Origin: Granulosicoccus sp.
GTDB taxonomy: Bacteria > Pseudomonadota > Gammaproteobacteria > Granulosicoccales > Granulosicoccaceae
DNA: 38,741 nucleotides
Direction of reading: 5' to 3'
Assembly (NCBI GenBank): GCA_023300375.1
Contig: JALZWO010000170.1
Coordinates: 1-38,741, forward strand
Numbering within the stretch: position 1 is the first letter of the stretch; each line of letters starts with the position of its first letter. The notes beneath the pieces were generated by a model, which saw only the letters and a program-made list of their open reading frames with translations, was not told the origin of the DNA and searched no databases. The translations under genes were made by a program, and so were the position numbers. This document shows, piece by piece, positions 2,348-31,439 of this stretch.

Positions 2348-3841
2348 GTGGTCAAAAAAGAACTGTCTTTCAGGATGAGGAATTTAGCACGGGTCCCTGA
2401 ATCTTCAAACGATTTTGTTGAGCCAACAGCGCGAAACAATGATGCTGATGTGCAAGCTGAACAAGCAGGCCTTTTGGCGCTTGTGTCAGACGTATTAGAA
2501 GCACATTCGCAAGAGAGCGCTCTTGATGCCTTGGTTGGGGCAGTGCAGCATCATTTTGAATGTGAACAAGTAGCTTTAGCGCTTGCAGAAAAAGATTCTC
2601 TGCACTTGCGTGCCGTATCGAAAAAAGCTTTCATCGATGTATCATCCAGTGATTCAAAACTGATTGTGGATGCTATGCAGGAGGCCTGTGATCGTGAAGT
2701 TGTGATTCGTTGGCCATTAATCTCTGTTAGTAAAAACCGTGAATTCGGTGTGCTCTTAGCGCATCGAGCTTTGTCTGAAAAACGCAGTTCCATGGTGTAC
2801 TGTAGCGTCCCTCTTTATCACGAAAACCAGTTACTGGGTGCAATGCTTCTTGAGCGCCGTGACGGGTTTGTTTTTACCGAAAATCAAGGTGTTTTCCTGG
2901 AGAAGGTGGCAGCTGTCGCTGCACCATTGCTGATGCTGCATCGTCAAGCAGATAGAGGCATTCGATCTGTTATTCGGCATAAATTTGATACTGCCATGGC
3001 GTCACGGATGGGGATTGAACATCCAGGGCGGCGTCTGCTTGCAGGTTTGATTTCATTGATTCTATTAGCGATTTTCATAGTGCCTGCACAGTCGCGTATT
3101 AATGCAAGTGCTGAACTAGTTCCTCAGGAGCGACGACTCATCACTGCCCCTCGAGCAGGATTTGTGCAATCAGTGGATGTTGTTGCTGGTGAGCAGGTTG
3201 ATGAGGGACAACTGCTCGCCACTTTAGATTCTCGCGATCTAGAGTTAGAGGCATCACGGAGCGCGAGTGAAATCGCCACGGCAGAAGTCGAATTTCGCGC
3301 AGCTATGGCAAGCTTCGATCGGCAAGCTTCAGTGGTGGCCCGTGCTCGCTTGGCGCAAGTTAGAGCCCAACAACTACTTATTGAGCGGCAACTCGATCAG
3401 AACTCGCTCCTAGCATCGATCTCTGGGATAGTCTTAAACTCAGATCCAGGTAACACTTTGGGCGCGCCAGTGTCGCGTGGTGATACGCTTTTCGAAATTG
3501 CACCTGCAGATGGGTATGAGGTACATTTATTAGTCGATGAGTCAGATATTCGTAACGTGCAGGTAGGACAAGCAGGTGAACTGACATTACGTGCAAGACC
3601 CGATGATGTATTAGCGTTTTCCGTGCAATACGTACATCCAATTGCCGAAGTTGGCAATGGTGCCAGCAGGTTTCGGGTGCGGGCCCAAGTGAGCACAAAC
3701 ACGGCAACTTCTAAGTCGATTTTACGTCCTGGCGAGAGCGGACAGGCAAGACTAGAAGGCGATTTAAAGAGTGTAGGTTGGATCTTATTTGAGCCATTGT
3801 GGAAGCGCATATCTGCGTTAAAGTGGCGTCTTCTCGGATGA
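2348..3841 (+). CDS. GAF-domain/HlyD-type membrane adaptor fusion
   Basis: First gene of the giant-protein cassette, 497 residues. Residues about 40-200 resemble a GAF sensor domain. A single membrane helix follows at about 229-247. Beyond it come a biotinyl-lipoyl-like half-motif (APRAGFVQSVDVVAGEQVDEGQ, about 265-286), a short coiled-coil hairpin (about 300-350), a second lipoyl half and a beta-barrel, as in HlyD-type adaptors. GAF should face the cytoplasm and the HlyD arm the periplasm, so the protein could pass a cytoplasmic signal to an export complex. The GTG at 2348 is used here; an ATG at 2375 (residue 10) is an alternative, and neither has a strong ribosome site. Its stop overlaps the next start as ATGA (3838-3841), implying translational coupling. 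Domain calls are by pattern; the GAF call is the less certain. Confidence 0.8.
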   Translation: MVKKELSFRMRNLARVPESSNDFVEPTARNNDADVQAEQAGLLALVSDVLEAHSQESALDALVGAVQHHFECEQVALALAEKDSLHLRAVSKKAFIDVSSSDSKLIVDAMQEACDREVVIRWPLISVSKNREFGVLLAHRALSEKRSSMVYCSVPLYHENQLLGAMLLERRDGFVFTENQGVFLEKVAAVAAPLLMLHRQADRGIRSVIRHKFDTAMASRMGIEHPGRRLLAGLISLILLAIFIVPAQSRINASAELVPQERRLITAPRAGFVQSVDVVAGEQVDEGQLLATLDSRDLELEASRSASEIATAEVEFRAAMASFDRQASVVARARLAQVRAQQLLIERQLDQNSLLASISGIVLNSDPGNTLGAPVSRGDTLFEIAPADGYEVHLLVDESDIRNVQVGQAGELTLRARPDDVLAFSVQYVHPIAEVGNGASRFRVRAQVSTNTATSKSILRPGESGQARLEGDLKSVGWILFEPLWKRISALKWRLLG

Positions 3842-5985
3842 GTGCGGGCCCCTTATTCAGTAGCCATTGGCATCGGGTGAGAGATGTACGCGCGCGTCTT
3901 GCTGATGATGTGCTGATATCACGTCATGTCTATCGCAAGAGGATCTCTTGGGTTCTACACCGACAAGCAACCGGCACTATTCATCGACTTGATGCACAGA
4001 GTTTTGAGCTGATTGACCGATTGGATGGCGCCATGAGCGTTGGGGAAATCTGGGAGCAGGCACTAGAACAGCGAAATCATGAAGCGCCTACCCAGGATGC
4101 CTGGATGCATCTACTTGCCGATTTACACGCTGCCGATCTGTTAATAGTTGATTCACGGGTCCCTGTTGAGAGTCTGTTTGAGCGACGTGAGAAAAAAAGA
4201 ACGCGTGAGCAAAGTCAACGTTACTTTAATCCATTGTATTTACGCTTTGCACTGATTGATCCTGATGAATGGCTGAATAGATTGCAGCCATTGGCAAACG
4301 CGTTGTTCTCGCGAATAGCCTTTATCTTGTGGGCAACATTGATGGTAGTGGGTTGCTTGGTCTTGTTCACTAACACTGAGCGGCTAGTTTACGACGCAGC
4401 CAATGCAGCTCAATTTAGACCGTATATGGCAACACTGTTTCTGTTGGCCTTTCCCCCTTTGAAATTAATCCATGAGCTTGGACATGGGTTGGCGATAAAG
4501 CGCTGTGGTGGAGAGGTACACGAGATGGGTATTGCACTGTTAGTGGTGTTCCCAATACCGTACGTCGATGCCAGCGTTAGCTCATTGTTCAAGAACAAGA
4601 ATGATCGCATGTTGGTCAGTGCCGCGGGCATTCTAGTTGAGCTAAGTGTAGCGGCAGTTGGTGTATTACTTTGGGCTAGCAGCACAAGCCTGGTCGGTGA
4701 CATAGGCCTGGTGTTGTTGCTAACTGCTGGATTGTCCACACTGCTGATCAATGGAAATCCTTTGTTGAAATTTGATGGTTATTATCTACTGGCAGATTGG
4801 TTGGAAATCCCAAACCTACAAGCACGTTCAAAGCATGCGGTCGGGCGATTACTGCGTCGTGGCCTTTCGGGTAAACACGATGAAGCACCTCGGCCCGAAG
4901 ATCCAGTCGAGCGCCAATGGCTCCTGAGTTACGGCGTTATGTCTGGCATTTATCGTACAGCTCTAATGTTGTCCATCGCCTGGATGCTCAGTGAGCGATG
5001 GTTTGTGCTAGGCGTTGCACTGGCGCTATTTGCTCTCTACCAAGGGCTAGTAATCCCTTTGTGGCGTGGGACAAAAGCGCTGTTTAACGATACAACATTA
5101 CGAGGAGCCCGGTCGAAGGTCTTAGCCTTGAGTTTACCGCTTCTGGCTTTAGCGATTCTTATGCTATTGCCGTTACCACATGCCAGTGTAACGAGAGGTG
5201 TTGTGTGGATGCCTGAGCAAGCAGTTATTCGGGCAGCGAGTGTATGTCAGGTTAGCGAAGTGATGGCAGAGCCTGGAGCTCAAGTACAAGCGGGTGATGC
5301 TCTGTTTCGTTGTGTGGATGACCAACTAGATGCAGAGAAGCAGTATCTCGAAGCACGCGTAGTAGAGATTGAGGCAGAATTATCAGGAGTTGCACGCACT
5401 GATAAGGTGAGTTATTCAAAGCAACTTCCTGAACTCGCCATAACACAAGAGATGCTTGATGACGTGCAACACCGTCTAGACGCCGAGCAGCATCGGGCAA
5501 CTGTTGCGGGTCGGTTTGACGTGAATGGAACCAGTATGTTGTTAGGCCGTGCATTTGCACGGGGAGAAGTAATTGGATATACCATTGCGCCTGCTGGTCG
5601 CACCATTCGCTTAGCGTTTGGAGAGCGCAAGTTTGCAGATGTGGATGACCATATAGAACGTATCGAAGTGCGTATTCAGAGATCAGGCCTGAATGCTGAG
5701 GTGTTTTCTACATCAATGCTAAGTCGTTCTCCTCGCGTCTCCCAGGACGTACCTAGCGCCGCATTGAGTTCATTGGGAGGTGGCCCACACGCAGCAGATC
5801 CTGAGGGCGATGGGCGACGACTTCTTAGTTCTGTAGTAGACATTGAATTAAATTGGCCTGAAACGGTTGTACCTGCATCCATTGGAAAACATGTGAGTGT
5901 GCGTTTTGTGCATCTACCAAAACCGCTGGCAGGAAGACTGATAGACACAGTAAAACGTGCATTTATGAATAGGAAGCCAGTGTGA
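3838..5985 (+). CDS. PqqD-like / M50 metalloprotease / HlyD-like fusion membrane protein
   Basis: I start this at ATG 3838, which overlaps the previous stop, giving 715 residues; a GTG at 3799 would add 13. Residues about 25-105 resemble a PqqD-type winged-helix peptide-binding domain. A multi-spanning M50 (site-2-protease-like) core follows, with zinc motif HELGHG (H212, E213, H216) and the distal aspartate D313 in the FDGYYLLADW segment. The C-terminal third holds two further membrane helices and a periplasmic lipoyl/barrel arm (about 450-700) like HlyD. All expected catalytic residues are present. This layout is known from peptide zinc metalloprotease/adaptor proteins near peptide export systems. 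In context it may bind the leader of the giant protein and cleave it at the membrane; that substrate is inferred. It couples to the next gene by a GTGA overlap. Confidence 0.85.
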   Translation: MSAGPLFSSHWHRVRDVRARLADDVLISRHVYRKRISWVLHRQATGTIHRLDAQSFELIDRLDGAMSVGEIWEQALEQRNHEAPTQDAWMHLLADLHAADLLIVDSRVPVESLFERREKKRTREQSQRYFNPLYLRFALIDPDEWLNRLQPLANALFSRIAFILWATLMVVGCLVLFTNTERLVYDAANAAQFRPYMATLFLLAFPPLKLIHELGHGLAIKRCGGEVHEMGIALLVVFPIPYVDASVSSLFKNKNDRMLVSAAGILVELSVAAVGVLLWASSTSLVGDIGLVLLLTAGLSTLLINGNPLLKFDGYYLLADWLEIPNLQARSKHAVGRLLRRGLSGKHDEAPRPEDPVERQWLLSYGVMSGIYRTALMLSIAWMLSERWFVLGVALALFALYQGLVIPLWRGTKALFNDTTLRGARSKVLALSLPLLALAILMLLPLPHASVTRGVVWMPEQAVIRAASVCQVSEVMAEPGAQVQAGDALFRCVDDQLDAEKQYLEARVVEIEAELSGVARTDKVSYSKQLPELAITQEMLDDVQHRLDAEQHRATVAGRFDVNGTSMLLGRAFARGEVIGYTIAPAGRTIRLAFGERKFADVDDHIERIEVRIQRSGLNAEVFSTSMLSRSPRVSQDVPSAALSSLGGGPHAADPEGDGRRLLSSVVDIELNWPETVVPASIGKHVSVRFVHLPKPLAGRLIDTVKRAFMNRKPV

Positions 5986-8135
5986 ACGTCACCTTACCGG
6001 AGCGAAAAAAGGCAGCGTTAGAATTTTCGGCTGTTCGACCAGGCTTGCGCTATGGTCAATCACCCCATCGCAAACGTATTTCGGCTCAGCAAACCTACCT
6101 TGATCGATGGATATTGCGAAGTCGATCGGCATTTGTACGTGGGCGTTACGCGAACTCTGAATCATGGTTACATGATGTCAGAGCGCGCATAGTGAACCTG
6201 TCGTCCCTGCCTGCTGATTCGTTGAATAATAACTTAAAACATTCAAAAAAATCATGGCATAGTAGGGGGCATATTGCTAGCAGCGTGGATGAGATGCTTG
6301 CAAAGTCAGCTTGCGTGGCTAAACAGACACTCGGACTTGATCCACATGATGTCCAACTTATAGCAGCCAGAGAATTGTTGCGTGGGCGATTTGTCGAGAT
6401 GGGTACCGGAGAGGGAAAAACGCTGACAATGGCGTTGGCTGCGGCGGTCTCGGCGCATGATGGAACTCCCGTACATGTATTGACCGCCAGTGATTATCTG
6501 GCCCAGCGCGATGCGCAATGGTTAACCTCTTTTTATCATGAATTGGGTTTGTCAGTGGCGTTCGTTTTGCCAAGTATGAGTGATCAAGAAAGGCGGATTG
6601 CTTATCGTTCTGATGTGGTACATGTAACAGGCAAGCAAGTAGCATTTGACTGGTTGCGAGATAATCTTGCAAACATTGAACAAAGCCATAGCCTCACAGC
6701 ACGTTTAGGCAATTTGGCTGAAGTCAATAAAGATCTGCGTAATACCCAATATGAACCATTGTTACGTGGTCTGTGCTTGGCGATTATTGACGAGGCGGAC
6801 AGCCTGTTGATTGATGAAGCCCGAACGCCTCTAGTACTTGCTGCACCGACGGCTCACAACATGACCCAGCGAAAAGAATGTGTAGTTGCCTTGACGCTTG
6901 CGAGGATGTTGCGTGAAGGTGTTGATTTCATCGTATCGACAGGAGAACGTATCGTGTACCTGACACCCGAGGGTGAGGTGACATTAGATTCACTGTCTTC
7001 TCGTATTGATGGTCTATGGCGCGCTAGCCGATACCGCGACGAGAAAGTTCGTAACGCCCTATCTGCACTGCATTGCTGGCACTGTAATCGCGACTATGTG
7101 GTGCGTGACTACAGTATTAAATTAGTCGATGCCCATACGGGGCGAACCTTGCCGGATCGTCGACTACAGCACGGATTGCACATGTTGCTTGAACTCAAGG
7201 AGCGATGTGAAGTTACGCCAGAAAATGATGTAGTCGCGTCGCTACCATTTCAAAGTTTTTTCCTCAACTACGTGAAGCTTTGCGGTATGAGTGGAACGCT
7301 TCATGAGGTTCGATCTGAGCTTGCCTGCGTCTATGGTGTTGATGTAATTCATGTATCACCAGAGCGGCCATCGCAGCTACAACAGTTGCCACCAAAGGTT
7401 TTTCCTAACGAGGAAAAACAACTAACAGCGTTAATTAATGATGTACAACGGTGCCTTTCTCGAGGTCGCCCTGTACTAATAGGAACTCAGACTGTTGAGC
7501 AATCGGATAAGGTCAGTGATGCATTAAGGTTACATGCGATAAAACATAACATGCTAAACGCATCACAGGATGCTCACGAAGCGGAAGTAGTAGCGCAAGC
7601 TGGCATTGCAGAGCAAGTTACTGTTGCTACCAATATGGCAGGACGTGGTACGGATATTCACCTTGGACCGGGAGTTCGCGATAGCGGTGGTTTGCATGTT
7701 ATATCGCTGGCATTTAACGACTCCAACCGATTAGACCGACAGTTGGCAGGGCGTGCCGCTCGTCAAGGAGATCCAGGAAGTTTTGTCCAGATGCATAATA
7801 TTGACGATCTATCACTTGCTAAAGAGTTACCCCCTTGGGCCATTGACGGTATGAAGCGCTTAGTTTTGAATCGTCGCACAACGCCATTGAAAAAGGATGT
7901 GTTACCCGAAAGTCCAAACATAAAATACGAGTCTCGATCTAATTCTCGTCAACCTGTCTCCAATGAGCTAGGTGTAATAAATGCGTCAGTTGGTACAGGC
8001 CTTGCTCACAAGGTTGTGTTGGTCTTACTGAAAATAATACAACGCAAGATTGAGGCACGCCACGCTGCAGAACGACAACGCTCTCTAGATGCGTCAGTAA
8101 AGCTAATCCATCACATTGCTATTGGTGTTTCTTGA
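5982..8135 (+). CDS. SecA-like preprotein translocase ATPase, shortened
   Basis: At 717 residues this is clearly SecA-related but shorter than housekeeping SecA (about 900 in E. coli). Walker A is MGTGEGKT (140-147). Walker B is DEADSLLIDEARTPL, starting at D270. The VDAHTGR, GMSGT, TNMAGRGTDIHLG and GRAARQGDPGS motifs keep the order seen in SecA, including both arginines of the last one. The preprotein cross-linking region (about 285-440) is present. The protein stops soon after the start of the long scaffold helix (QRKIEARHAAERQRS), so the helical wing, two-helix finger and C-terminal zinc-binding tail are missing. GTG start 5982 overlaps the previous stop, and its own stop overlaps a TTG start. 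It is probably an accessory SecA serving the cassette, not the essential SecA. Confidence 0.9.
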   Translation: MNVTLPERKKAALEFSAVRPGLRYGQSPHRKRISAQQTYLDRWILRSRSAFVRGRYANSESWLHDVRARIVNLSSLPADSLNNNLKHSKKSWHSRGHIASSVDEMLAKSACVAKQTLGLDPHDVQLIAARELLRGRFVEMGTGEGKTLTMALAAAVSAHDGTPVHVLTASDYLAQRDAQWLTSFYHELGLSVAFVLPSMSDQERRIAYRSDVVHVTGKQVAFDWLRDNLANIEQSHSLTARLGNLAEVNKDLRNTQYEPLLRGLCLAIIDEADSLLIDEARTPLVLAAPTAHNMTQRKECVVALTLARMLREGVDFIVSTGERIVYLTPEGEVTLDSLSSRIDGLWRASRYRDEKVRNALSALHCWHCNRDYVVRDYSIKLVDAHTGRTLPDRRLQHGLHMLLELKERCEVTPENDVVASLPFQSFFLNYVKLCGMSGTLHEVRSELACVYGVDVIHVSPERPSQLQQLPPKVFPNEEKQLTALINDVQRCLSRGRPVLIGTQTVEQSDKVSDALRLHAIKHNMLNASQDAHEAEVVAQAGIAEQVTVATNMAGRGTDIHLGPGVRDSGGLHVISLAFNDSNRLDRQLAGRAARQGDPGSFVQMHNIDDLSLAKELPPWAIDGMKRLVLNRRTTPLKKDVLPESPNIKYESRSNSRQPVSNELGVINASVGTGLAHKVVLVLLKIIQRKIEARHAAERQRSLDASVKLIHHIAIGVS

Positions 8136-9055
8136 AATTATTTACTATGAACCGGTACTATATCGTAACTATATTATTTTTCGTATCCTCTGCCTTGCAA
8201 GCTCAGCAGACGCTGCCCGAAAATGAGCATGATTGCTTCATAGTGCCTAGCGTTATGGCTGATGTGGGTAGCCCAGTGCGCGGGGTAGTTGCGCGTCTGC
8301 TGGTTGATCGAGGTGACTCTGTAAGTCAGGGTCAACCGATCGCTGAGCTTGAATCGGACATGGAGCAAATCATGTTATCTCATGCCCAGGCTCGAGTTGA
8401 TATGACCAGTGAGCTTGCGGCAAGAGATGCGGATCTTAAGCTTGCCACGCAGGAGCTGACTAGAGTAGAGGATATGCACGCCCAGCTTCTGGCTCCGTCC
8501 CAGCAACGCGATGAATCTAGGGCTAGAAAACAGATTGCCAAGGCAGGTCTGGCGCAGGCATTAGAAAATCGGGAGCTCATTAAAATTGAGCTGAAACGAG
8601 CAAAACATGAACTCGAACAACGCACTTTACGCAGTCCGACTAACGGTGTAGTCGTTGAGCAGTTCATCGTTCCTGGCGAGTTTATCAATGATGAGCCGAT
8701 AATGAACATTGCAATGTTAGATCCACTTCGAGTTGAAGTGGTACTTCCGGCTAATTTATTTGGCTCGGTGCGGGTGGGGGGTAGAGCTTCGATCACACCA
8801 GAATTAGAAACCGATATTCCTCTGACGGCCACTATTGATGCTGTTGATGGATTGCTCGATACTCGAAGCGGTACGTTTGGTGTGCGCCTTAAGCTACCGA
8901 ACGCGAATATGGCGATTCCCTCTGGTCAGAAATGCATTGCAGATTTTCTTGAATACAAGGTGGACAACGCATACAACTCGTACACTGCGGATGCGCTAGA
9001 TGCTGCGGACGCTTCAGACAACACTGTTATCGAGTTGGCGGAAGAGGCGGAGTAG
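8132..9055 (+). CDS. Periplasmic HlyD/RND-type membrane fusion protein
   Basis: The protein has 307 residues from TTG 8132 (TTGA overlap with the SecA-like stop) or 302 from ATG 8147. Either start leads into an export signal, with a hydrophobic core around YYIVTILFFVSSALQAQ. The mature part has a lipoyl half (SPVRGVVARLLVDRGDSVSQ), a long coiled-coil hairpin (about 85-165, Glu/Lys/Ala/Gln-rich), the second lipoyl half (LRSPTNGVVVEQFIVPGEF) and a barrel domain. The end is acidic and Ala/Asp-rich. It should be a periplasmic adaptor bridging inner and outer membrane parts. No partner pump or TolC-like channel lies nearby, so the outer-membrane component must be encoded elsewhere or not be needed. 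Only six bases separate it from the giant gene, which suggests cotranscription. Confidence 0.85.
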   Translation: MKLFTMNRYYIVTILFFVSSALQAQQTLPENEHDCFIVPSVMADVGSPVRGVVARLLVDRGDSVSQGQPIAELESDMEQIMLSHAQARVDMTSELAARDADLKLATQELTRVEDMHAQLLAPSQQRDESRARKQIAKAGLAQALENRELIKIELKRAKHELEQRTLRSPTNGVVVEQFIVPGEFINDEPIMNIAMLDPLRVEVVLPANLFGSVRVGGRASITPELETDIPLTATIDAVDGLLDTRSGTFGVRLKLPNANMAIPSGQKCIADFLEYKVDNAYNSYTADALDAADASDNTVIELAEEAE

Positions 9056-9061
9056 TCAGGG

Positions 9062-12000
9062 ATGGCTGATGTGTCAGGCAGACAACGAAACAGGCAAACG
9101 TCTGAATTTCAATTAGAGGAGCTTGAGCCACGCGTCTTGTTCTCCGCTGATCTGCCTATGGCTGTGTTGGGAAGTGTGTCATTAGATGCCGTTACGCAGG
9201 CGTCTGTTGTTGGTGAACACACACAAGTTTCCACAAGCACTAATGACAACATTCACGCAGGCAATACTGCGCTGACGTCTGTTACTGAATTAGTAATAAT
9301 CGATAGTGGTGTCAGCGATGTTGATGCTATGTTGGTTGATCTTGGCTTGCGTAGCAATGTGAATCAGCATGTAATGATACTTGAGGATAGCGCACGTGAC
9401 GCAACGGCGGCACTGACACAACTCAGTGATGTGCTAGCAAATTTTCATGGGCTGCAAGCTGTTCACTTGATCTCCCATGGAGGCGCTGGTGAATTAGTAT
9501 TGGGTGGTGAGCGTGTGGACACCGTTGATCTGTTGGCGAATGCAGCAATAATTGACAACTGGCGTAGTGCGCTTGCCCCCGGTGCCGATTTACTCGTCTA
9601 TGGCTGTGATGTGGCATCAGGATCAAGTGGTCAGGCATTTGTTGAAACGCTATCGCTACTGAGTGGAGCCGATGTGGCAGCTTCCAACAATTTAACCGGT
9701 GGTGAGCAAGCGGGTGGCGATTGGACATTCGAAGTGCAACACGGAAATATTCAGCATAGTGTTGCGTTCAGCGATAGCTTGCAGCAAGACTATCAAGCGA
9801 GCTTCGCATCTTACGCTGTCACAAATCTTAACGACAATGGCATCGGTAGTTTTCGTTTTGGTATTAATCAAGCCAATGCCTCTGGCGATGATTACGTAAT
9901 CAGTTTCGATGTGTCAGGTACTATCCTGTTAGATAGTCACCTGCCGGCAATCACAGACGCAATAACCATTGATGGAGGAACAGCTGCGGCGTTTGACGTT
10001 CCGCTTGTGATTCTTGATGGACGCAACATTAGTGCGGCGGGCTCTGGAGGTGATGGGGGAATCCAGCTTTTGGCGGGTAGTGATGGCAGTGTTGTACGTG
10101 GCCTCGCCATTGTCAATTTTCCACAACACGGTATTGATATTTTGGATTCTGGTGGGCACACCATTGAATCAAATTTCGTTGGTACTGATGACACAAATGC
10201 ACTGGGGAACCAGTTCATGGGCATCAATCTTCAAAACAGCGCGAATAATGTTATCGGCGGTACAGGCAAGGGCAATGTTATCTCCGGTAATCTGATGTCT
10301 GGTATCTCGATTTCTGGTGTTAACTCGACAGGCAACACGATTGAGGGGAATTACGTAGGCACAGATAGTAGTGGCCTTGTGCCAATGGGCAACGGTCACC
10401 ATGGCATAGAGTTTGATTCTGTAGCGAGCAACAATACGGTGGGTGGTTTATTGCCATCAGGTGCTAACACGATACGATTTAACGAAGGAGCAGGTATTGC
10501 GTTGTCCGACCGCGATTCCGCCAACAATACACACCAGTTCAATACGATTAGCGACAACGGTGGGTTAGAAAGTGAGTTGAACTCTGAGGGTTTTATCCTC
10601 AATGATAGTAATGCTGTAGGAGCAATACCCAATGACTTGATAGCTACTTCTACCAAGGGTGGCGGTTTGAGTATCAATTCCGATGGAGGTAATGATACCT
10701 ATGTCTTAGCAGAGGATGGTGTATCAATTCTTGGCTCATTGAATACTCTATCGGTAGAAATAGATGTAGCGCTTCGCGGCGGAACTGGTTCGAATTTGTT
10801 TTACTATGATTCTCCCGGAACAATCAATGACTTCAGGATTCTTGTCAGTTCGCAAGGGCGGGTGTTTGCCCAAATTGACAATAATGTTAATTTCTTTGCG
10901 ACAACCGCAGACGCAATACTGGTAAATGACGGTGTCCGCCGAACCATCGCCCTAACATGGGATGGTGTTACTGGCGATCTCTCTTTGTACATAAATGGAA
11001 AATTTCAACAGCAGTTCACGGATGCTGACAACATTTATACACTAGCCAATGATGGAACTCTAGTCTTGGGTAATGATCAACCCACGCATCAGGGAGGTGC
11101 TAGGCCGGCTCTAGCCGCTGATATTGAGCTGTATCAGGTTCGTGTTTTCAACGAGGTTAGAACTGAAAATCAATTGGCCGCGAGCTATGGTAGCGAATTG
11201 CCTTTTAACGAAGATGGGATGGTCGCACAGTGGACGTTTGACAACCTGTCCAGTGAGGGTGTGATTACCGATTCGGTGGCGGGTAACAACCTGACGGTGG
11301 GGCATATTCTTCAACCGGGCTTTACACCCAGTGAGGCGTCTTTAACCTTTGAACTTGATGAAAATGTACTTGATGGAACGCTCGTTGGTGAAGTGTCTGG
11401 CATCGATGCTGAACGCAATGCTCTGATAGCTTCGTTGTTGGCTGATGATCCAGATCTAAAATACAATGCAGAAACTGACAAGTTCTATAAAGTCAACGAT
11501 AATTCGTTTACGGCAGCCGGCGCTAGCGCAAGTGCACAGAGTTTGATACTTAATGATGTGAATGGGCAGTTGGTGACGATTCGCGATGCGGCCGAAAACA
11601 ATTTTATCACTCATCTTGTTGCATCATTGGGAGGCAGCGTCTGGATTGGTGCTACAGACACAGCAGTTGAAGGTGAGTGGCGATGGGGTGAATCGGGAAT
11701 CGAAGCAGATTTGTTCTGGTCTGGTACCGAGGATGGATATGCAGTTGATGGTGCTTACAATAATTGGCATGTCGGTTCACAGCCTAATCAATTGGGTGAA
11801 GAAGACGCGGCACGACTAGACACCACCACTGGGCGATGGTTTGATGCAAGGGCTAATGATTTTTTTCATTACATCGCTGAGTGGAATGCAGATGATGTGC
11901 TCGATACATCGCAAGCGCTAAGTTATGCAATTGCCTCACAAACTGTAGCCGGTGCATTTTCAATTGATTCGAACAGAGGTAAAATCACAGTTGCTGATGG

Positions 12001-15000
12001 GGCTCTGCTGGACTTTGAATCCAACTCCACACACACGCTCAGCGTACATACCACCGATGTCGATAACAATACCTTTGAGGAAAGCTTTTTAGTCTCGCTC
12101 AACGATCAGACGGAAAGCACTAACGGGCCCACTGACATCTCGAGTGGTATTGAACTTAACATGGATGGTGGGAATGATTCCTACTTGCGTACTGACAATG
12201 GCTCAGCAATTTTTGGTGGTTTAACGCAACTCACATTGGAATCTCGGTTTGCCATTACGCCATCGAATGTGGTCTATACATCTCTATTTTCATATGAGGC
12301 GTCTGGAAATACAAATGAAGTTCGGCTTGGAATTCTGTCAGATGGACGACTAAGCTTTCAAATTGATGGGCAATCTGCAATTGCAAGTAATTCTATGGTA
12401 GGGCTCTTAGATGGTGAGCTACACCATATATCGCTCTCGTGGGACAACACCAATGGTGATGTCGCAATATACGTTGACGGGAAACTGTTTGACAGTCTAA
12501 CGGGTATTGCAGTCGGTAGTGAGTTAACTCAATTTCCAGGGACATTAATACTGGGTCAAGATCAAACCTCTGCGAATTTTGACTTTTCCGCTAATCGAGC
12601 ATTTTCTAGCACCTTGTACGACGTGCGCATCTGGGACACTGTGCGCAGCCAAGCTGACATACAACTTAATTTTCAAAATAAGTTCGACAGCAGTAGCTTG
12701 CCCACTGGATTGATCGCCAACTGGCAAATGGATGGCTTTAACTCCGCTGGTGATGTCGTCGATATTGTCTCTGGCAACAATTTGAGTGTCGGTCATGCAA
12801 CAGGTACTGGTTTCATTGCCAGCACGCCAGTTGGTGAGCTCCACATTAGTGAATCTGCGTTGAGCCAAGATAGTGTTGGTTTTGTCGTGCCAACTTATCC
12901 ACCCATCATTAGCAATGTGGTCAGTGACGGTCAATTCCTTGAAGTTGCCGACCCTGGTGGAGCTCAGGCTATCCCTGATGGTGGGAGTATTGGAGACTGG
13001 CTTGTTAGTGGCGACGGTGTCAAGCTAATAGGTTCGGAGTTCGAGTCGCCAGACGGAGGTGGACGATCTGTTTCACTATCTGACAGTGATGGCTCGATTT
13101 CGCAAACTCTGACCACCGTAGCAGGTCAACAGTATCAAGTCGTATTTGAAGTGGCAGGTGATTTTAGTGGTGGTGACACAGTCAAGAACTTACGGGTTTC
13201 CGCCAGTGGTCAATCAAGTGACATTACCTTTGTGGAAGGTGACAACTGGTCATTAGCCAACATGGGTTGGGAAAACCGTTCGCTGACCTTTACTGCAACG
13301 AATAGCACTACGCAGATTTCATTCTCAACGATGGATATTAATGGTACAAGCTTCGGTCCGGCTGTTGGCAATATTCGTGTTTCTGAAGTTCCACAAGCAA
13401 TATCAGTCATTTTAAATAACGATTCAACCTTATCTTACGACGCGGCCACCAACAAATTCTACCGCTTTGTGAATACGCCCTCGCATTTTGATGTTGCTCT
13501 AAGTGCTGCAACCACAAGCGCTTTGAATGGCGTGTCTGGTCAATTAGTCACAATTGATTCAAGCCACGAAAATGAAATCATTCGCCAATTTGCCAGAGAC
13601 AGTGGTAATCAAATCTGGCTAGGTGCCAGCGATGAGACGACCGATAGTGAATGGCACTGGTTGGATGGAACAGTTGAATCGGATGAGATTTTCTGGGTAG
13701 GCGGAAGGGATGGCGGTGCCGTTAATGGGCTGTACGCTGTATCTCTGGGGCTTTCGGACAACGCTGAAGAGTTTTACTTGCGTTTGGGCAGTACTGGAGG
13801 TTGGTTTGATGCCCCAGGTAATATAAATTATGCGTACGTTGTTGAGTGGGATGCTAGCGACGTACTTTCCGGCTCTACTTACAGTCTAGTCGATGCATCT
13901 GGAAATTTTGAAATTTCCAGCCACAGTGGTGAGATAACTGTGGCGTCTTCCAACACACTAGACTTCGAAACGGCAAGGTTTCACGATGTTGATGTGACTG
14001 TCACTGATGCGGCAGGCAATAGTTTTGTAGAAGTGCTATCGATTGCTGTTGATAACGTGATAGACCAAGGATTTAGCCTGCCTGGTGCTCAGAGCATCGA
14101 TGAAGATCTGCCTCTGGAATTTAGCAGTGGCAATATGAATGCGGTAACAGTGACAAACAACTCAGGAACAAGCGACACTCAGTTGCAAGTCGTGCTCTTG
14201 GTTAACGATGGCGCTTTGATGCTGTCACAGACAACAGAATTGTCGATTTCAGAAGGTTCCAATGGAAGTTCATCGTTGACCATTCAAGGCACTGAGTCAG
14301 CTCTAAATGCTGCATTGGAAGGCATGGTGTTTACGCCAGATGAAAACTTTAATGGCGCGGTCACATTGAATGTCACTACATCATCGACGTCTGGTGAAGA
14401 GCAAACCAGCGGCAGTGTTGACATCTCAGTTACCTCGGTTAATGACGCGCCAGATGATGTGGCTCTGGCAGACCCAACCGGAACTAATCTGTTAAGCAAT
14501 GGCAGCTTTGAAACAAACAGTGGTAACGCCAATACGTCAACCGGGGGTACTGGAGTAACCGTTAGCCAATGGACTCCGCTTGGCGGTGAAGGTCTTTTAG
14601 TGTGGAACAATTTTGACGCAGGGGGGCCAGGTGCTGCCAGTGAGGGACTGGCGAATTTGGTATTGAACGTACAAACGGGTATCAATGGCTTAGCTCAAAG
14701 CGTTGCAACTGTGGCTAACCAAGCCTACGTTGTTAGCGTCGATTTTTCAAATATCAACACTGATCCAAGCTCTGAAGTTGAAGTGTATTGGCGTGGTGAT
14801 CTTATTGGTACGATTACTCAGAGCGCTGTTGCATGGCAGACACATAGTTTCGTCGTGACAGGCTCTGGCGGGTCAGATGAGCTACGTTTTGTAGAAACAG
14901 AAAACAACAACTCCATAGGATCAGCGTTGCTGGATAACGTTCGTCTAGTTGCAGAAAACACCCCCACAGTCACCGTTGATGAAAATGCCGCTACAGGTAC

Positions 15001-18000
15001 CGTTGTGGCCTTTGCCGGGGCTAGTGATGTTGATACCTCACCTGTAGACACCCGAACGTTTACGTTGACCGAGGATGCTGGCAATCGATTTGAGATAGAT
15101 CCGATAACTGGTGTTATCAGTGTAGCTGGCGGTTCGCCGCTCGACTTCGAAGCGGAAACCTCACACAGCATTAGCGTACGAGTGTCAGATTTGGCCGCAG
15201 AATTTCACGAAGAAAACTTTGTTATTGATGTTGTCGATGTAGACGAAGCACCAAGGGATATTTTGGTTCTTGCAGGTTCAAACCTCATTAGTAATTCGTC
15301 GTTCGAATCCAATACCGTTGGCTGGACTCTCTCTGGTGCTGTAGAAAGAACAGATATCGACTCAACGCCTTCTGATGGTGTTTTCTCGCTGACCTTTAAT
15401 AATCAAGAACAGGCCAATATGGGCCTTGCGACCACAGCAATCGCGACTGAGATTGGTAAGACCTACACGGTTGTTTTCGAAGCAGGATCATTCGGGGGGT
15501 TTAGAGAGTCGATGTCGCTACAGTTCATAGCGACTGGATCAACCGTACTCATAGATCAAACTGTGACAGATATCGGAAGTAATCCTGGAACAAACGCCAG
15601 TTATCAATATACTTTTGTTGCTGATAGCAGTACCACGGTAATTAGTCTCACTGACACGTCAGTCAACACCATAAATGTCGATATCAACTTTGACAATATT
15701 CGTGCGTTTGAAGTAGACCCTACGCGTACAATGAGCGTTGCAGAAAATGCAGCTAGTTCAACGTTTGTGGCTCAAGTGTTCAGCACCGCTCAGGATGAAA
15801 GCGAGACCATTACCTATTCGTTGATTGATGATGCTTCCGGTCGTTTTTCTATCGATGCTACTACGGGTGAGATTTCTGTAGCTAATGGATTGTTGCTGGA
15901 TCATGAGGCTGACAGTTCACACGATATAATTGTTGGGAGTACGGATGCAGGTGGCAGCCTAACCACGAGCGACACGTTTACAGTTAACGTAATCGACATT
16001 AACGATGCGCTAGTATTTTCAACCAATGTGCACATTGAAAACCACAGTTTCGAAGCGCAGCTTCTGAACAATGGACAACCGGTTGGTTTTACAACCGATT
16101 GGACAACCACAGGTGCGTCAACAGGTACATGGAACCCCGCTAGCAGTGTCTATTCTGGAGAAGCACCTGATGGTCAGAACGTTGGCTTTATTGATGAGGT
16201 TGGAGCGTTTTCTCAAACAACGATGGCACTGTTCACCCCGGACACTGACTATCAATTAACCGTTGCCATTGGAGATGCGATTTCGCCAGTCGAAACTAAT
16301 GCTTGGCAGATTCGACTATACGCCGGTGATCAACTGCTGGGCGCTGCGTCTAACGATGATGTAAATCCTGCCGATGACACATTTACTGATGTGTCGCTTA
16401 CTTTAACATCTGCACAATTAGCGATGTTTTCATTGAATTATGGCGAAAATCTGCGTGTAGAAATTTTCGATGCTGGTACCTCTGATAATTTGCATTTTGA
16501 CAATGTACGTCTCACGCAAACATCGGGAGGCATTACAACCCCCACAGTAACTTACATTGAGGACGGCGCAGCAGTTAACTTGGATGAGAACTTACGGGTA
16601 TTTGATGAAGAGCTGAGCACTGTTGATGGCTTCGACGGTGTAACGTTAAATCTTGTTCGTAATGGGGGCGCTAATAACGATGACGTGTTCAGTGCAACAG
16701 GTAATCTTCTGTTGAACGCTGGCAGCTTAGAGCTGTCATCGACTGTTGTTGGGAGCTACAGCAATACACAGGGTGAATTGACACTGAGCTTTGTCGCGGG
16801 TGTTTCTAACGCACAGGTAAACGAGGTAATGCAGTCGATTGCCTACAGTAACAACAACGATGTTCCACCTCTAAACGTACAAATTGACTGGACGTTTAGA
16901 GAGGCAACTACTGGAGCACAGAGTAGTGGTGGGGTTGAGCAAGCAGTGGCCAGTACGATGGTAGACATCATAGCCACTAATGATGCGGCAACAGCCAGCA
17001 ATCTCAACGCAGCAGAAACCTACACAGAGGGCACGGTTCTTGACCTAACGGACATCATTGTCACTGATGTCGATAGCGCAACAGTGACTGCAAGTTTAAC
17101 GCTGAGTGATGTTGCTGCAGGTACGTTGAATACAGGTACATCGGGCTCTGTGAGTTCGACATTTGTTAACGGAGTGTGGAGTGCTAGTGGTGCAATAGCA
17201 GATGTAAATGTGTTGTTGGCTGGTGTTAGCTTTACTCCCGCAGCAAATTACAACAGTAATTTTACTGTAGTTACAAATGTTGATGATGGCGTTGCAACAG
17301 CGTTGACGGGTAGCAAGCTCTTCACAGGCATCGCGGTAAACGATGCTCCCACCGCAGCAAACAACACAGTGGCTACTAATGAGGATACCGAGTATAACTT
17401 CGCTGTTGCAGACTTTGCCTTTAGTGATATTGACGGCGACTCGTTGACTAGTGTGCGGATTACCACACTGGAAACTGTCGGCACGTTGCAATTGTACGGT
17501 ACGGATGTAATTTTGAATCAGGTTATCAGCGCGACTGATATTGATGCAGGCGGACTGAGTTTTGTCCCAAATTTAAATCAAAGTGGTATTAGTTACGATA
17601 GCTTTGCTTTTTTGGTAAATGATGGTCTAAGCGATTCGATGACGAGTTACACGATGATGCTTGATGTGTTGGAAGTCAGTGACGCTCCCTCATTGTTGGT
17701 TATTAGCAATAGCACTGTACAAGAAAACACAAACACCCAAGACGGCTTTAGCATCGGTACATTGAGTAGTAGTGATGCAGATACGGCTGACACGTTTATC
17801 TACAGCGTGCTGAGTGGCTTAGATGCAGCGGTATTTAGTATTGGCGGTGTGAATTCAAATGAGTTGATTCTTACGAACGGTGTAGTTAATTTTGAATCAA
17901 AATCACTTTATTCAGTAACGATAAGAGTTACAGATTCCGCTGGTCTGACACATGATCAGGTTCTGGAAATCAATGTGATCAACGTGAATGAGGTTCCAGT

Positions 18001-19306
18001 AATTACCTCTCAGGCTACTGTGAACACAGACGAAAATCAGACATCAGTGTCCACAGTACAAAGTTCAGATGTGGATGGTGGATCACTGACTTACAGTATC
18101 AGCGGCGGCATCGATGCTGAACTATTTTCAATCAACGCATCAAGTGGTGAATTAAATTTCATTGTTGCCCCAGACCACGAGACGAAAGATCTATTTCAGG
18201 TGCAAGTCACGGTCACTGACGCCGGTGGGCTAACAGGTGAGCAGGTTCTGTCGGTTCGTGTGAATGATGTCAATGAAGCGCCAACTATCCTCGATTCAGA
18301 GTTTAAAATTACGGACAGATTTGTAGGCGTTATAGGGCAACTTGAAGCTACGGATCCTGATTCAGGTGAACAACTAGTTTTCCAGCTTGTGACTGAAAGT
18401 GTTGTTTCTACATTGGATACGGTCGTACTAAGTGATGAGGGTGAATTGAGTATCAGGGGCGCTCACGATGGCACCTATCAGTTTGAAGTTAAGGTTGTAG
18501 ATTCGATGGGGCTTGAAGATAGAGCCACTTTGACGCTACGTATTGTTGCTGAACTGGAAGTCAACGTAGTTGAATTTATAGAACTCACTCCAACCGAGAG
18601 TGAGGAACCTAATCCAGAACCTGAACAGCTTGTTACTCCGTCCATAGCTAAGGCGGAACCGGAACCGGAACCGGAATCCACGGTCAGTGTCAGTTCTCAA
18701 GTAGACAAGGTACAAGAACCTCAAATCGATGGGGCTCAAACAGCAGATAGCGACACTATCGCTGCGACAGTGAATATCCCTGTGTTTGATCCGTTTTTTG
18801 AAACTATAGATGATGATAGAAACGAGGTAGGTACTGATGTGTCTAGCGAGTTGTCAAGATCATACAAGGTAAGCTCGCGTGTTATTGTCGAGCTGTTGAC
18901 TGACACACAGAGCAATGACCAACCTGACCTTTTAGGCTCAATGATGTCAATGTTTAGTGGTTCTACGGCTCCGCTGACTTTCTCCTTTGATCTAATCGAC
19001 AAGCTTGACAAAATTCGGACAGACGCTGAGATATTGGAAAAAGAGGATACGCTGAAACAAAGCCTTGTTTTTGCTTCGGGCACAGTGGTGACAGCGACAT
19101 TAAGTGTCGGCTTTGCTACGTGGCTTATTCAGTCAGGACTTTTGGTGGCATCGGCCATGTCTACCACTCCACTGTGGCGTGGCATGGATCCAATGCCAAT
19201 CCTGATGGCAGGTAGTGACGTGGACGTTGAAGGTTTTAACGCGTCATCAGATAGTGTTAAAAATGTTGATTCTCATGAGCGCACTCCTCGCGTGCCTAGG
19301 AATTAA
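9062..19306 (+). CDS. Giant LEPR-XLL / DUF4347 / cadherin-like surface protein
   Basis: A 3414-residue protein, the likely cargo of the cassette. There is no classical signal peptide; the N-terminus carries the LEPR-XLL motif LEPRVLFSAD (21-30). Then come DUF4347 (about 76-240, SHGG with H139, YGCD with C182) and a right-handed beta-helix (about 250-505). The first LamG-like (about 533-757) and C-type-lectin-like (about 800-948) pair is repeated as LamG (about 1028-1257) and lectin (about 1457-1600), with a DUF642-like insert between. From about 1603 to 3165, cadherin-like repeats (typical ends VNDAP, VNEAP) alternate with three more DUF642-like modules. A Glu-Pro linker (about 3177-3214) leads to a membrane-spanning stretch (about 3334-3362) and LWRGMDPMPI (3371-3380). 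GGAG nine bases before the ATG fits the start. It is probably a surface adhesin or matrix protein binding glycans; domain borders are approximate. Confidence 0.93.
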   Translation: MADVSGRQRNRQTSEFQLEELEPRVLFSADLPMAVLGSVSLDAVTQASVVGEHTQVSTSTNDNIHAGNTALTSVTELVIIDSGVSDVDAMLVDLGLRSNVNQHVMILEDSARDATAALTQLSDVLANFHGLQAVHLISHGGAGELVLGGERVDTVDLLANAAIIDNWRSALAPGADLLVYGCDVASGSSGQAFVETLSLLSGADVAASNNLTGGEQAGGDWTFEVQHGNIQHSVAFSDSLQQDYQASFASYAVTNLNDNGIGSFRFGINQANASGDDYVISFDVSGTILLDSHLPAITDAITIDGGTAAAFDVPLVILDGRNISAAGSGGDGGIQLLAGSDGSVVRGLAIVNFPQHGIDILDSGGHTIESNFVGTDDTNALGNQFMGINLQNSANNVIGGTGKGNVISGNLMSGISISGVNSTGNTIEGNYVGTDSSGLVPMGNGHHGIEFDSVASNNTVGGLLPSGANTIRFNEGAGIALSDRDSANNTHQFNTISDNGGLESELNSEGFILNDSNAVGAIPNDLIATSTKGGGLSINSDGGNDTYVLAEDGVSILGSLNTLSVEIDVALRGGTGSNLFYYDSPGTINDFRILVSSQGRVFAQIDNNVNFFATTADAILVNDGVRRTIALTWDGVTGDLSLYINGKFQQQFTDADNIYTLANDGTLVLGNDQPTHQGGARPALAADIELYQVRVFNEVRTENQLAASYGSELPFNEDGMVAQWTFDNLSSEGVITDSVAGNNLTVGHILQPGFTPSEASLTFELDENVLDGTLVGEVSGIDAERNALIASLLADDPDLKYNAETDKFYKVNDNSFTAAGASASAQSLILNDVNGQLVTIRDAAENNFITHLVASLGGSVWIGATDTAVEGEWRWGESGIEADLFWSGTEDGYAVDGAYNNWHVGSQPNQLGEEDAARLDTTTGRWFDARANDFFHYIAEWNADDVLDTSQALSYAIASQTVAGAFSIDSNRGKITVADGALLDFESNSTHTLSVHTTDVDNNTFEESFLVSLNDQTESTNGPTDISSGIELNMDGGNDSYLRTDNGSAIFGGLTQLTLESRFAITPSNVVYTSLFSYEASGNTNEVRLGILSDGRLSFQIDGQSAIASNSMVGLLDGELHHISLSWDNTNGDVAIYVDGKLFDSLTGIAVGSELTQFPGTLILGQDQTSANFDFSANRAFSSTLYDVRIWDTVRSQADIQLNFQNKFDSSSLPTGLIANWQMDGFNSAGDVVDIVSGNNLSVGHATGTGFIASTPVGELHISESALSQDSVGFVVPTYPPIISNVVSDGQFLEVADPGGAQAIPDGGSIGDWLVSGDGVKLIGSEFESPDGGGRSVSLSDSDGSISQTLTTVAGQQYQVVFEVAGDFSGGDTVKNLRVSASGQSSDITFVEGDNWSLANMGWENRSLTFTATNSTTQISFSTMDINGTSFGPAVGNIRVSEVPQAISVILNNDSTLSYDAATNKFYRFVNTPSHFDVALSAATTSALNGVSGQLVTIDSSHENEIIRQFARDSGNQIWLGASDETTDSEWHWLDGTVESDEIFWVGGRDGGAVNGLYAVSLGLSDNAEEFYLRLGSTGGWFDAPGNINYAYVVEWDASDVLSGSTYSLVDASGNFEISSHSGEITVASSNTLDFETARFHDVDVTVTDAAGNSFVEVLSIAVDNVIDQGFSLPGAQSIDEDLPLEFSSGNMNAVTVTNNSGTSDTQLQVVLLVNDGALMLSQTTELSISEGSNGSSSLTIQGTESALNAALEGMVFTPDENFNGAVTLNVTTSSTSGEEQTSGSVDISVTSVNDAPDDVALADPTGTNLLSNGSFETNSGNANTSTGGTGVTVSQWTPLGGEGLLVWNNFDAGGPGAASEGLANLVLNVQTGINGLAQSVATVANQAYVVSVDFSNINTDPSSEVEVYWRGDLIGTITQSAVAWQTHSFVVTGSGGSDELRFVETENNNSIGSALLDNVRLVAENTPTVTVDENAATGTVVAFAGASDVDTSPVDTRTFTLTEDAGNRFEIDPITGVISVAGGSPLDFEAETSHSISVRVSDLAAEFHEENFVIDVVDVDEAPRDILVLAGSNLISNSSFESNTVGWTLSGAVERTDIDSTPSDGVFSLTFNNQEQANMGLATTAIATEIGKTYTVVFEAGSFGGFRESMSLQFIATGSTVLIDQTVTDIGSNPGTNASYQYTFVADSSTTVISLTDTSVNTINVDINFDNIRAFEVDPTRTMSVAENAASSTFVAQVFSTAQDESETITYSLIDDASGRFSIDATTGEISVANGLLLDHEADSSHDIIVGSTDAGGSLTTSDTFTVNVIDINDALVFSTNVHIENHSFEAQLLNNGQPVGFTTDWTTTGASTGTWNPASSVYSGEAPDGQNVGFIDEVGAFSQTTMALFTPDTDYQLTVAIGDAISPVETNAWQIRLYAGDQLLGAASNDDVNPADDTFTDVSLTLTSAQLAMFSLNYGENLRVEIFDAGTSDNLHFDNVRLTQTSGGITTPTVTYIEDGAAVNLDENLRVFDEELSTVDGFDGVTLNLVRNGGANNDDVFSATGNLLLNAGSLELSSTVVGSYSNTQGELTLSFVAGVSNAQVNEVMQSIAYSNNNDVPPLNVQIDWTFREATTGAQSSGGVEQAVASTMVDIIATNDAATASNLNAAETYTEGTVLDLTDIIVTDVDSATVTASLTLSDVAAGTLNTGTSGSVSSTFVNGVWSASGAIADVNVLLAGVSFTPAANYNSNFTVVTNVDDGVATALTGSKLFTGIAVNDAPTAANNTVATNEDTEYNFAVADFAFSDIDGDSLTSVRITTLETVGTLQLYGTDVILNQVISATDIDAGGLSFVPNLNQSGISYDSFAFLVNDGLSDSMTSYTMMLDVLEVSDAPSLLVISNSTVQENTNTQDGFSIGTLSSSDADTADTFIYSVLSGLDAAVFSIGGVNSNELILTNGVVNFESKSLYSVTIRVTDSAGLTHDQVLEINVINVNEVPVITSQATVNTDENQTSVSTVQSSDVDGGSLTYSISGGIDAELFSINASSGELNFIVAPDHETKDLFQVQVTVTDAGGLTGEQVLSVRVNDVNEAPTILDSEFKITDRFVGVIGQLEATDPDSGEQLVFQLVTESVVSTLDTVVLSDEGELSIRGAHDGTYQFEVKVVDSMGLEDRATLTLRIVAELEVNVVEFIELTPTESEEPNPEPEQLVTPSIAKAEPEPEPESTVSVSSQVDKVQEPQIDGAQTADSDTIAATVNIPVFDPFFETIDDDRNEVGTDVSSELSRSYKVSSRVIVELLTDTQSNDQPDLLGSMMSMFSGSTAPLTFSFDLIDKLDKIRTDAEILEKEDTLKQSLVFASGTVVTATLSVGFATWLIQSGLLVASAMSTTPLWRGMDPMPILMAGSDVDVEGFNASSDSVKNVDSHERTPRVPRN

Positions 19307-31424: not shown

Positions 31425-31439
31425 CGGCAACGTGAATCA

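Follow-up and report, generated by a model that had tools for sequence, protein, structure and literature searches.

A conserved set of neighbouring genes, which includes a shortened relative of the SecA protein-export motor and a membrane protease fused to a predicted peptide-reading domain, is found across many bacteria together with giant surface-type proteins that carry one short N-terminal tag, LEPR-XLL, and it looks like a so far undescribed machinery for the export and maturation of these proteins. The set was studied in a stretch of 38,741 nucleotides from Granulosicoccus sp. (assembly GCA_023300375.1, contig JALZWO010000170.1, positions 1 to 38,741), here referred to as the window. 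A preliminary description, made from the sequence alone, had reported four coupled genes (GAF-HlyD, PqqD-M50-HlyD, a short SecA-like ATPase, and a periplasmic HlyD) leading into a gene for a 3414-residue protein without a signal peptide, and this observation was confirmed. The accompanying interpretation, in which the SecA-like motor drives the cargo, the PqqD part recognizes its leader, the M50 part cleaves it, and the HlyD arms span the periplasm, outside type I and accessory Sec systems, was only partly supported. In this study, domain searches, structure prediction, comparison of gene neighbourhoods, and co-occurrence across genomes were used to assess both. Genomes, contigs, and loci used for comparison are numbered with the prefixes G, C, and L, respectively.

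Gene organization of the cassette

All five open reading frames (ORFs) lie on the forward strand at the positions given in the preliminary description, and they are followed by a sixth gene, encoding a PAS-GGDEF protein, which that description had missed (Table 1). The four genes are translationally coupled to the gene for the giant protein and to the PAS-GGDEF gene; they overlap by ATGA at 3838, GTGA at 5982, and TTGA at 8132, and a gap of 6 bases (9056-9061) precedes the gene for the giant protein. The M50-HlyD protein most likely starts at 3838 rather than at the mechanical ORF start at 3799, since the overlap lies there and its relatives also begin with MSxxxLFSxHWxRV. Likewise, the PAS-GGDEF gene probably starts at ATG 19311, 4 bases after the stop codon of the giant, because the orthologue in the sister genome starts with the same MQTSxLQK sequence. 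Consensus scans for a conserved promoter or terminator around the operon gave no more hits than shuffled sequences.

Table 1. Features of the window, with positions on the forward strand of the contig
Positions	Strand	Feature	Supporting observations
2348-3841	+	GAF-HlyD: cytosolic GAF (aa 55-192), one TM (230-248), periplasmic HlyD/adaptor part	Pfam/NCBIfam GAF and HlyD_3/HlyD_D23; same gene directly upstream of M50-HlyD in nearly all related loci
3838-5985	+	RRE(PqqD-like)-M50-HlyD fusion; HExxH at H225/E226/H229 and NxNPLLKFDG at 318-327 (728-aa numbering of the ORF from 3799)	M50 with weak PqqD and HlyD matches; predicted RRE fold
5982-8135	+	Short SecA-like ATPase, 717 aa (NBD1, PPXD, NBD2, first half of the scaffold helix; no HWD, two-helix finger, or C-linker)	SecA_DEAD, SecA_PP_bind, and P-loop_SecA; no SecA C-terminal domain hit
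8132-9055	+	Periplasmic HlyD-type adaptor with N-terminal signal-peptide-like segment	HlyD match
9062-19306	+	3414-aa LEPR-XLL giant surface-type protein (cargo), 1 Cys, acidic	NF012209 (LEPR-XLL), DUF4347, cadherin, pentaxin, lectin, and choice-of-anchor C domains
9107-9169	+	N-terminal LEPR-XLL tag (FQLEELEPRVLFSADLPMA region)	NF012209; tag variants compared with M50 clades
9290-9799	+	DUF4347 domain of the giant (aa 77-246)	Domain search
19037-19225	+	Conserved C-terminal module of the giant: hydrophobic segment + PLWRGMDPMPIL	Profile of Granulosicoccaceae cargo ends
19311-21551	+	PAS-GGDEF membrane protein (mechanical ORF starts at 19215), same transcription unit	Orthologues follow the cassette or cargo in relatives
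29073-31430		dCache-HAMP-GGDEF-EAL protein	
36871-38619		CBM96/F5_F8 carbohydrate-binding protein	

The giant scores 19.7 bits with the LEPR-XLL model NF012209 as a protein and 26.7 bits in the genome search, against a cut-off of 17 bits. It contains 0 RTX nonapeptides, and it has no classical hydrophobic signal peptide: the best 19-residue hydropathy in its first 80 aa is 1.39, inside the tag region. No ABC ATPase was found among the window genes scanned, and none was seen in an annotated plasmid cassette; the inner-membrane protein of the cassette is instead RRE-M50-HlyD. Three HlyD-type parts are encoded. No outer-membrane channel gene lies in the cassette of the window, while two TolC-type (OEP) genes are present elsewhere in the genome. 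The genome, which is 97.5% complete, encodes a single SecY and a full-length canonical SecA.

Occurrence of the cassette and pairing with LEPR-XLL proteins

The genus and family relatives match Granulosicoccaceae. Among 95 relatives, the LEPR tag was found in 40 genomes and M50-HlyD in 49. In the gene maps the short SecA lies between M50-HlyD and HlyD wherever it is found, and never elsewhere. A lack of enrichment of these neighbours around LEPR-XLL proteins in other genomes had been named beforehand as grounds for rejection, and the comparison gave the opposite result. Starting from M50-HlyD alone, 80 named loci were retrieved from Alpha-, Beta-, Gamma-, and Deltaproteobacteria, Nitrospira, and Rokubacteria. 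The order GAF-HlyD/M50/SecA-like/(HlyD) recurs in 79 of them, with the SecA-like gene directly following M50-HlyD and GAF-HlyD preceding it except where the contig ends, although this set is biased toward SecA-containing loci because the query came from such loci. Of 50 of these genomes, 46 encode a LEPR-tag protein (63 in all, usually 1-2 per genome), with frames up to 15,161 aa. In 37 of the 50 the LEPR gene lies within 12 kb of the M50 gene, of which 19 were checked by the size of the contig and the other 18 by coordinate only. The cargo may lie on either side of the cassette; it is often upstream with a DUF3467 gene of ~100 aa between the giant and GAF-HlyD, as annotated on plasmid NZ_CP049813.1 in RefSeq, where the same gene order is seen (in locus L251 the DUF3467 gene, of about 93 aa, lies at 17860-18141). 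A search of plasmids gave annotated examples only. The longest LEPR-tag frame seen, 19,427 residues without a stop, was found at G203:C115:112865-112924.

In an unbiased sample of 299 evenly drawn Pseudomonadota genomes, 36 encode a LEPR protein and 72 encode M50-HlyD, and all 36 LEPR genomes have M50-HlyD (P=1e-26); for the high-scoring M50 clade alone the odds ratio is about 359. Of 48 LEPR genes, 26 lie within 15 kb of an M50-HlyD gene, which is a lower bound because many contigs are short and only three M50 candidates per genome were scored. Several cassettes sit beside GGDEF genes with no LEPR gene nearby (L092-L095, L097). In addition, L099, L102, L116, and L120 hold SecA-less GAF-HlyD/M50-HlyD pairs without a LEPR gene, followed by a hybrid histidine kinase and a response-regulator GGDEF-EAL gene, and in L102 preceded by a CheB gene.

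In the sister genome G008, the giant gene at the cassette is cut to 75 codons with its tag kept and is followed directly by the GGDEF gene, while an intact orthologue (251 of 300 N-terminal residues identical) lies on another contig and the four-gene cassette stays intact (L081:7056-7291 and G008:C69:27445). This indicates that the cassette can evidently serve cargo in trans. In genome G023 (loci L089 and L254; contig C1, about 550-569 kb), the LEPR giant of the second SecA cassette appears to be split by a frameshift into two long frames.

Two classes of cassette and two tag variants

From the evenly drawn sample, 40 high-scoring and 20 low-scoring M50 loci were retrieved without regard to their neighbours. 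The SecA-like gene is adjacent in 37 of 40 loci of the high-scoring clade and in 0 of 20 of the low-scoring clade, in which cassettes often hold a TolC-type gene and two adaptors instead. The cargo tags of the low-scoring class read LEPRxMFDGA or LEPRxMLDAA, whereas those of the high-scoring class read LExRxLxSAD or close variants, whether or not SecA-like is present. The tag variant follows the M50 clade in 60 of 60 cases, i.e., 48 of 48 S[AG]x tags with one clade and 12 of 12 D[GA]A tags with the other, and both pairings occur inside single genomes such as G023 and G149. Relatedness inflates such counts, but the within-genome cases argue for true matching, and the simplest reading is that the M50-HlyD protein, not SecA, reads the tag.

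The SecA-like ATPase, to which the preliminary description gave the driving role, is not the common denominator. It is absent from the MFDGA-tag/TolC subtype and from many functional-looking Granulosicoccaceae cassettes with the same LxSAD tag class, while M50-HlyD is the invariant partner (36 of 36). Furthermore, at least five loci (L153, L158, L162, L176, and L213) hold SecA-like proteins that have lost Walker A and DEAD motifs but keep their place in the cassette, and three of these five genomes also carry an intact copy.

Predicted structures and conserved motifs

In the model of M50-HlyD (pLDDT 83), residues 30-117 have the predicted fold of RiPP recognition elements (RREs) solved with bound leader peptides, matching the leader-bound lasso-peptide RRE 6jx3_B (Z 10.4, rmsd 2.7, 84 of 85 residues) and TbiB1 5v1u/5v1v (Z 10.1 on aa 30-120), although Pfam PqqD matched only weakly, in 12 of 29 proteins. 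Residues 458-711 match a MexA/MacA-type adaptor (Z 12-13). The M50 part was not listed among the PDB matches because the HlyD domain filled the list, which is not evidence about the M50 fold. The M50-HlyD and GAF-HlyD proteins span the membrane, with HlyD parts that resemble MexA/MacA; a basic stretch before the first TM of M50-HlyD and the HlyD part after the last would place the RRE in the cytosol and HlyD in the periplasm, as inferred from sequence. HExxH is kept in 177 of 177 M50 proteins and the second, NPxxxFDG-type motif was matched by regular expression in 164 of 177, while the Pfam M50 score of the window member is just under the gathering threshold (25.8 of 27.2).

The model of the SecA-like protein (pLDDT 75) aligns to SecA (6itc_A and 5eul_A, Z 33-34) only up to residue about 605 of B. 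subtilis SecA, and the profile ends at residue 606 of 841. About 83 residues follow NBD2 in nearly all copies, where canonical SecA has some 230 more than the profile covers, and the helical wing domain, two-helix finger, and C-linker are missing. NBD1, PPXD, and NBD2 are retained with their ATPase motifs, as [TPSG]GEGKT is present in 83 of 86 and DExDS in 86 of 86 full-length copies. The short proteins separate from canonical SecA with support 1.0 over a branch of 0.90 substitutions per site.

C-terminal module of the cargo

Nearly all full-length Granulosicoccaceae LEPR proteins examined end in a hydrophobic segment with a G..G..PxW..DP core, in which G, G, P, W, and D are invariant; this module was also missed by the preliminary description. 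A profile of it hits 79 places in 33 of 57 relatives, only in this family and in G056, which also has LEPR and the cassette, and where the N- and C-terminus lie on one contig they fall in the same frame. A second protein in the genome of the window carries the module as well (G000:C20:62694-62876, locus L253; frame of 1813 aa, N-terminus cut off by the contig end), as do the Desulfofustis loci L183 and L201. Cargos in Alphaproteobacteria and many others lack a clear C-terminal hydrophobic segment, so a C-terminal membrane anchor on all cargos was rejected outside Granulosicoccaceae and some Desulfobacterota.

Interpretation

The best explanation, to which a probability of roughly 0.6 is given, is a dedicated export and maturation system for LEPR-tagged giant proteins. 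The analysis itself demonstrates genetic coupling, conserved gene order, cargo pairing, the matching of tag and M50 clade, (predicted) folds, and active-site conservation, whereas the binding, translocation, cleavage, and regulatory steps of the following scheme are inferred. In this view, I) the cytosolic RRE domain would bind the N-terminal LEPR-x-L-x-SAD tag, as inferred from fold and tag/M50 co-variation; II) the short SecA-like ATPase, which keeps both nucleotide-binding domains and the preprotein clamp, would hold or thread the unfolded chain at the membrane, as an add-on used by one large clade and not as the core; III) the chain would cross the inner membrane at the M50-HlyD complex or at the single SecYEG of the cell, the use of which is not excluded, and would be led across the periplasm by the GAF-HlyD, M50-HlyD, and HlyD arms to a TolC-type channel encoded elsewhere (TolC is encoded in the cassette in a SecA-less subtype); IV) the M50 intramembrane protease would cleave the cargo, either at the tag or, in Granulosicoccaceae and some Desulfobacterota, at the C-terminal hydrophobic module that may otherwise hold the giant in the inner membrane; and V) the GGDEF protein and the GAF domain would couple export or release to signals such as c-di-GMP, as inferred from linkage. 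The SecA-less cassettes, the SecA-like copies without ATPase motifs, and the cassettes without a nearby LEPR gene weigh against this scheme, as do the lack of a channel gene in the window's cassette and the loss of the two-helix finger, which argues against SecA-style pushing through SecY.

A further-reaching version, which remains tentative and is considered less likely than not, is a secretion pathway of Gram-negative bacteria separate from SecYEG and ABC exporters, in which an RRE reads an N-terminal tag, an M50 membrane protein fused to HlyD forms or gates the inner-membrane passage, and a finger-less SecA feeds in chains of up to about 15,000-19,000 residues.

Alternatively, though this is unlikely, the giant may cross the inner membrane through the housekeeping SecYEG, with the short SecA-like protein acting as a cargo-specific chaperone, unfoldase, or scaffold that hands it to canonical SecA, and with the M50-HlyD complex processing it afterwards, which would be an accessory branch of Sec. 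This is in line with the single SecY and full-length SecA, the missing two-helix finger and C-linker, the SecA-like paralogues without ATPase motifs, and the SecA-less cassettes with the same tag class, but not with the absence of a classical signal peptide on the cargo or with the fixed adjacency to an RRE-M50-HlyD membrane protein rather than to sec genes. Still less likely, the cassette may only anchor and release the giant, the C-terminal module holding it in the inner membrane until the M50 protease cuts it there under c-di-GMP/GGDEF control, in function like LapD/LapG release of LapA. The conserved module, the linkage of GGDEF genes to cassettes and cargos, and the fact that M50 proteases cut within membranes favour this, but cargos without the segment keep the cassette, and SecA-like, the RRE, and the N-terminal tag pairing are not explained. 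Lastly, neighbourhood by descent or shared mobility without functional dependence is very improbable, since, although neighbourhood data alone cannot show function and some cassettes lack a nearby LEPR gene, co-occurrence is 36 of 36, tag and M50 match even within genomes, and the order is conserved across classes with the cargo on either side.

How Gram-negative bacteria move proteins of 3,000 to more than 15,000 residues without a signal peptide or an ABC exporter is an open question. The cassette is tied to the tag by which NCBI names such giants, across several classes of Pseudomonadota and beyond. If the proposed reading is correct, it would give the LEPR tag a function, put RRE leader recognition to work on a giant protein, and show a SecA motor stripped of the element that contacts SecY. 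No description of the system was found in the open-access papers searched, which did not include preprints or most subscription journals, so that a prior description cannot be excluded; the two papers naming LEPR-XLL mention it only in passing.

Comparison with known systems

By the features tested, the cassette is neither a type I nor an accessory Sec system, as the preliminary description had proposed. With type I secretion systems (HlyB/HlyD/TolC; LapBCE-LapA) it shares HlyD-type adaptors, a giant, low-Cys, acidic, multidomain cargo encoded next to the machinery, and, in a related subtype, a TolC-type gene; it differs in having no ABC transporter in the cassette, an N-terminal LEPR tag in place of a C-terminal/RTX signal (which is not universal in type I cargos), an RRE-M50 membrane protein, and a SecA-like ATPase. 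As in the accessory Sec system (SecA2-SecY2-Asp) of Gram-positive bacteria, there is an extra SecA-type ATPase that would be dedicated to large surface proteins. However, the SecA-like protein lacks about 230 C-terminal residues and scores far below the SecA2 cut-offs (TIGR03714, 387.8 of 930 bits; TIGR04221, 370.7 of 725; TIGR04397, 405.8 of 1085), there is no SecY2 and there are no Asp proteins, and the gene is coupled to M50-HlyD. With LapD/LapG control of giant adhesin release by c-di-GMP, it shares a giant surface-type protein, a linked GGDEF/EAL protein, and a protease, but the protease is an M50 membrane protease instead of LapG, and no LapG or LapD match was found in the cassette. The tag itself belongs to the LEPR-XLL domain proteins (NF012209), possibly related to the planctomycete extracellular N-terminal motif; no export route was found described for these proteins, and the present data link the tag to a cassette. 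Lastly, the RRE fold, of a kind that binds leaders, and the HExxH M50 intramembrane protease resemble RiPP maturation/export with RRE and M50 (daptide HExxH NF041824, YydH/LiaK) and HlyD; the best NCBIfam match of the M50 protein is NF041824, at 166.1 bits and thus below the curated cut-off of 300, but here the protease is fused to HlyD and the cargo is a protein of thousands of residues rather than a small peptide.
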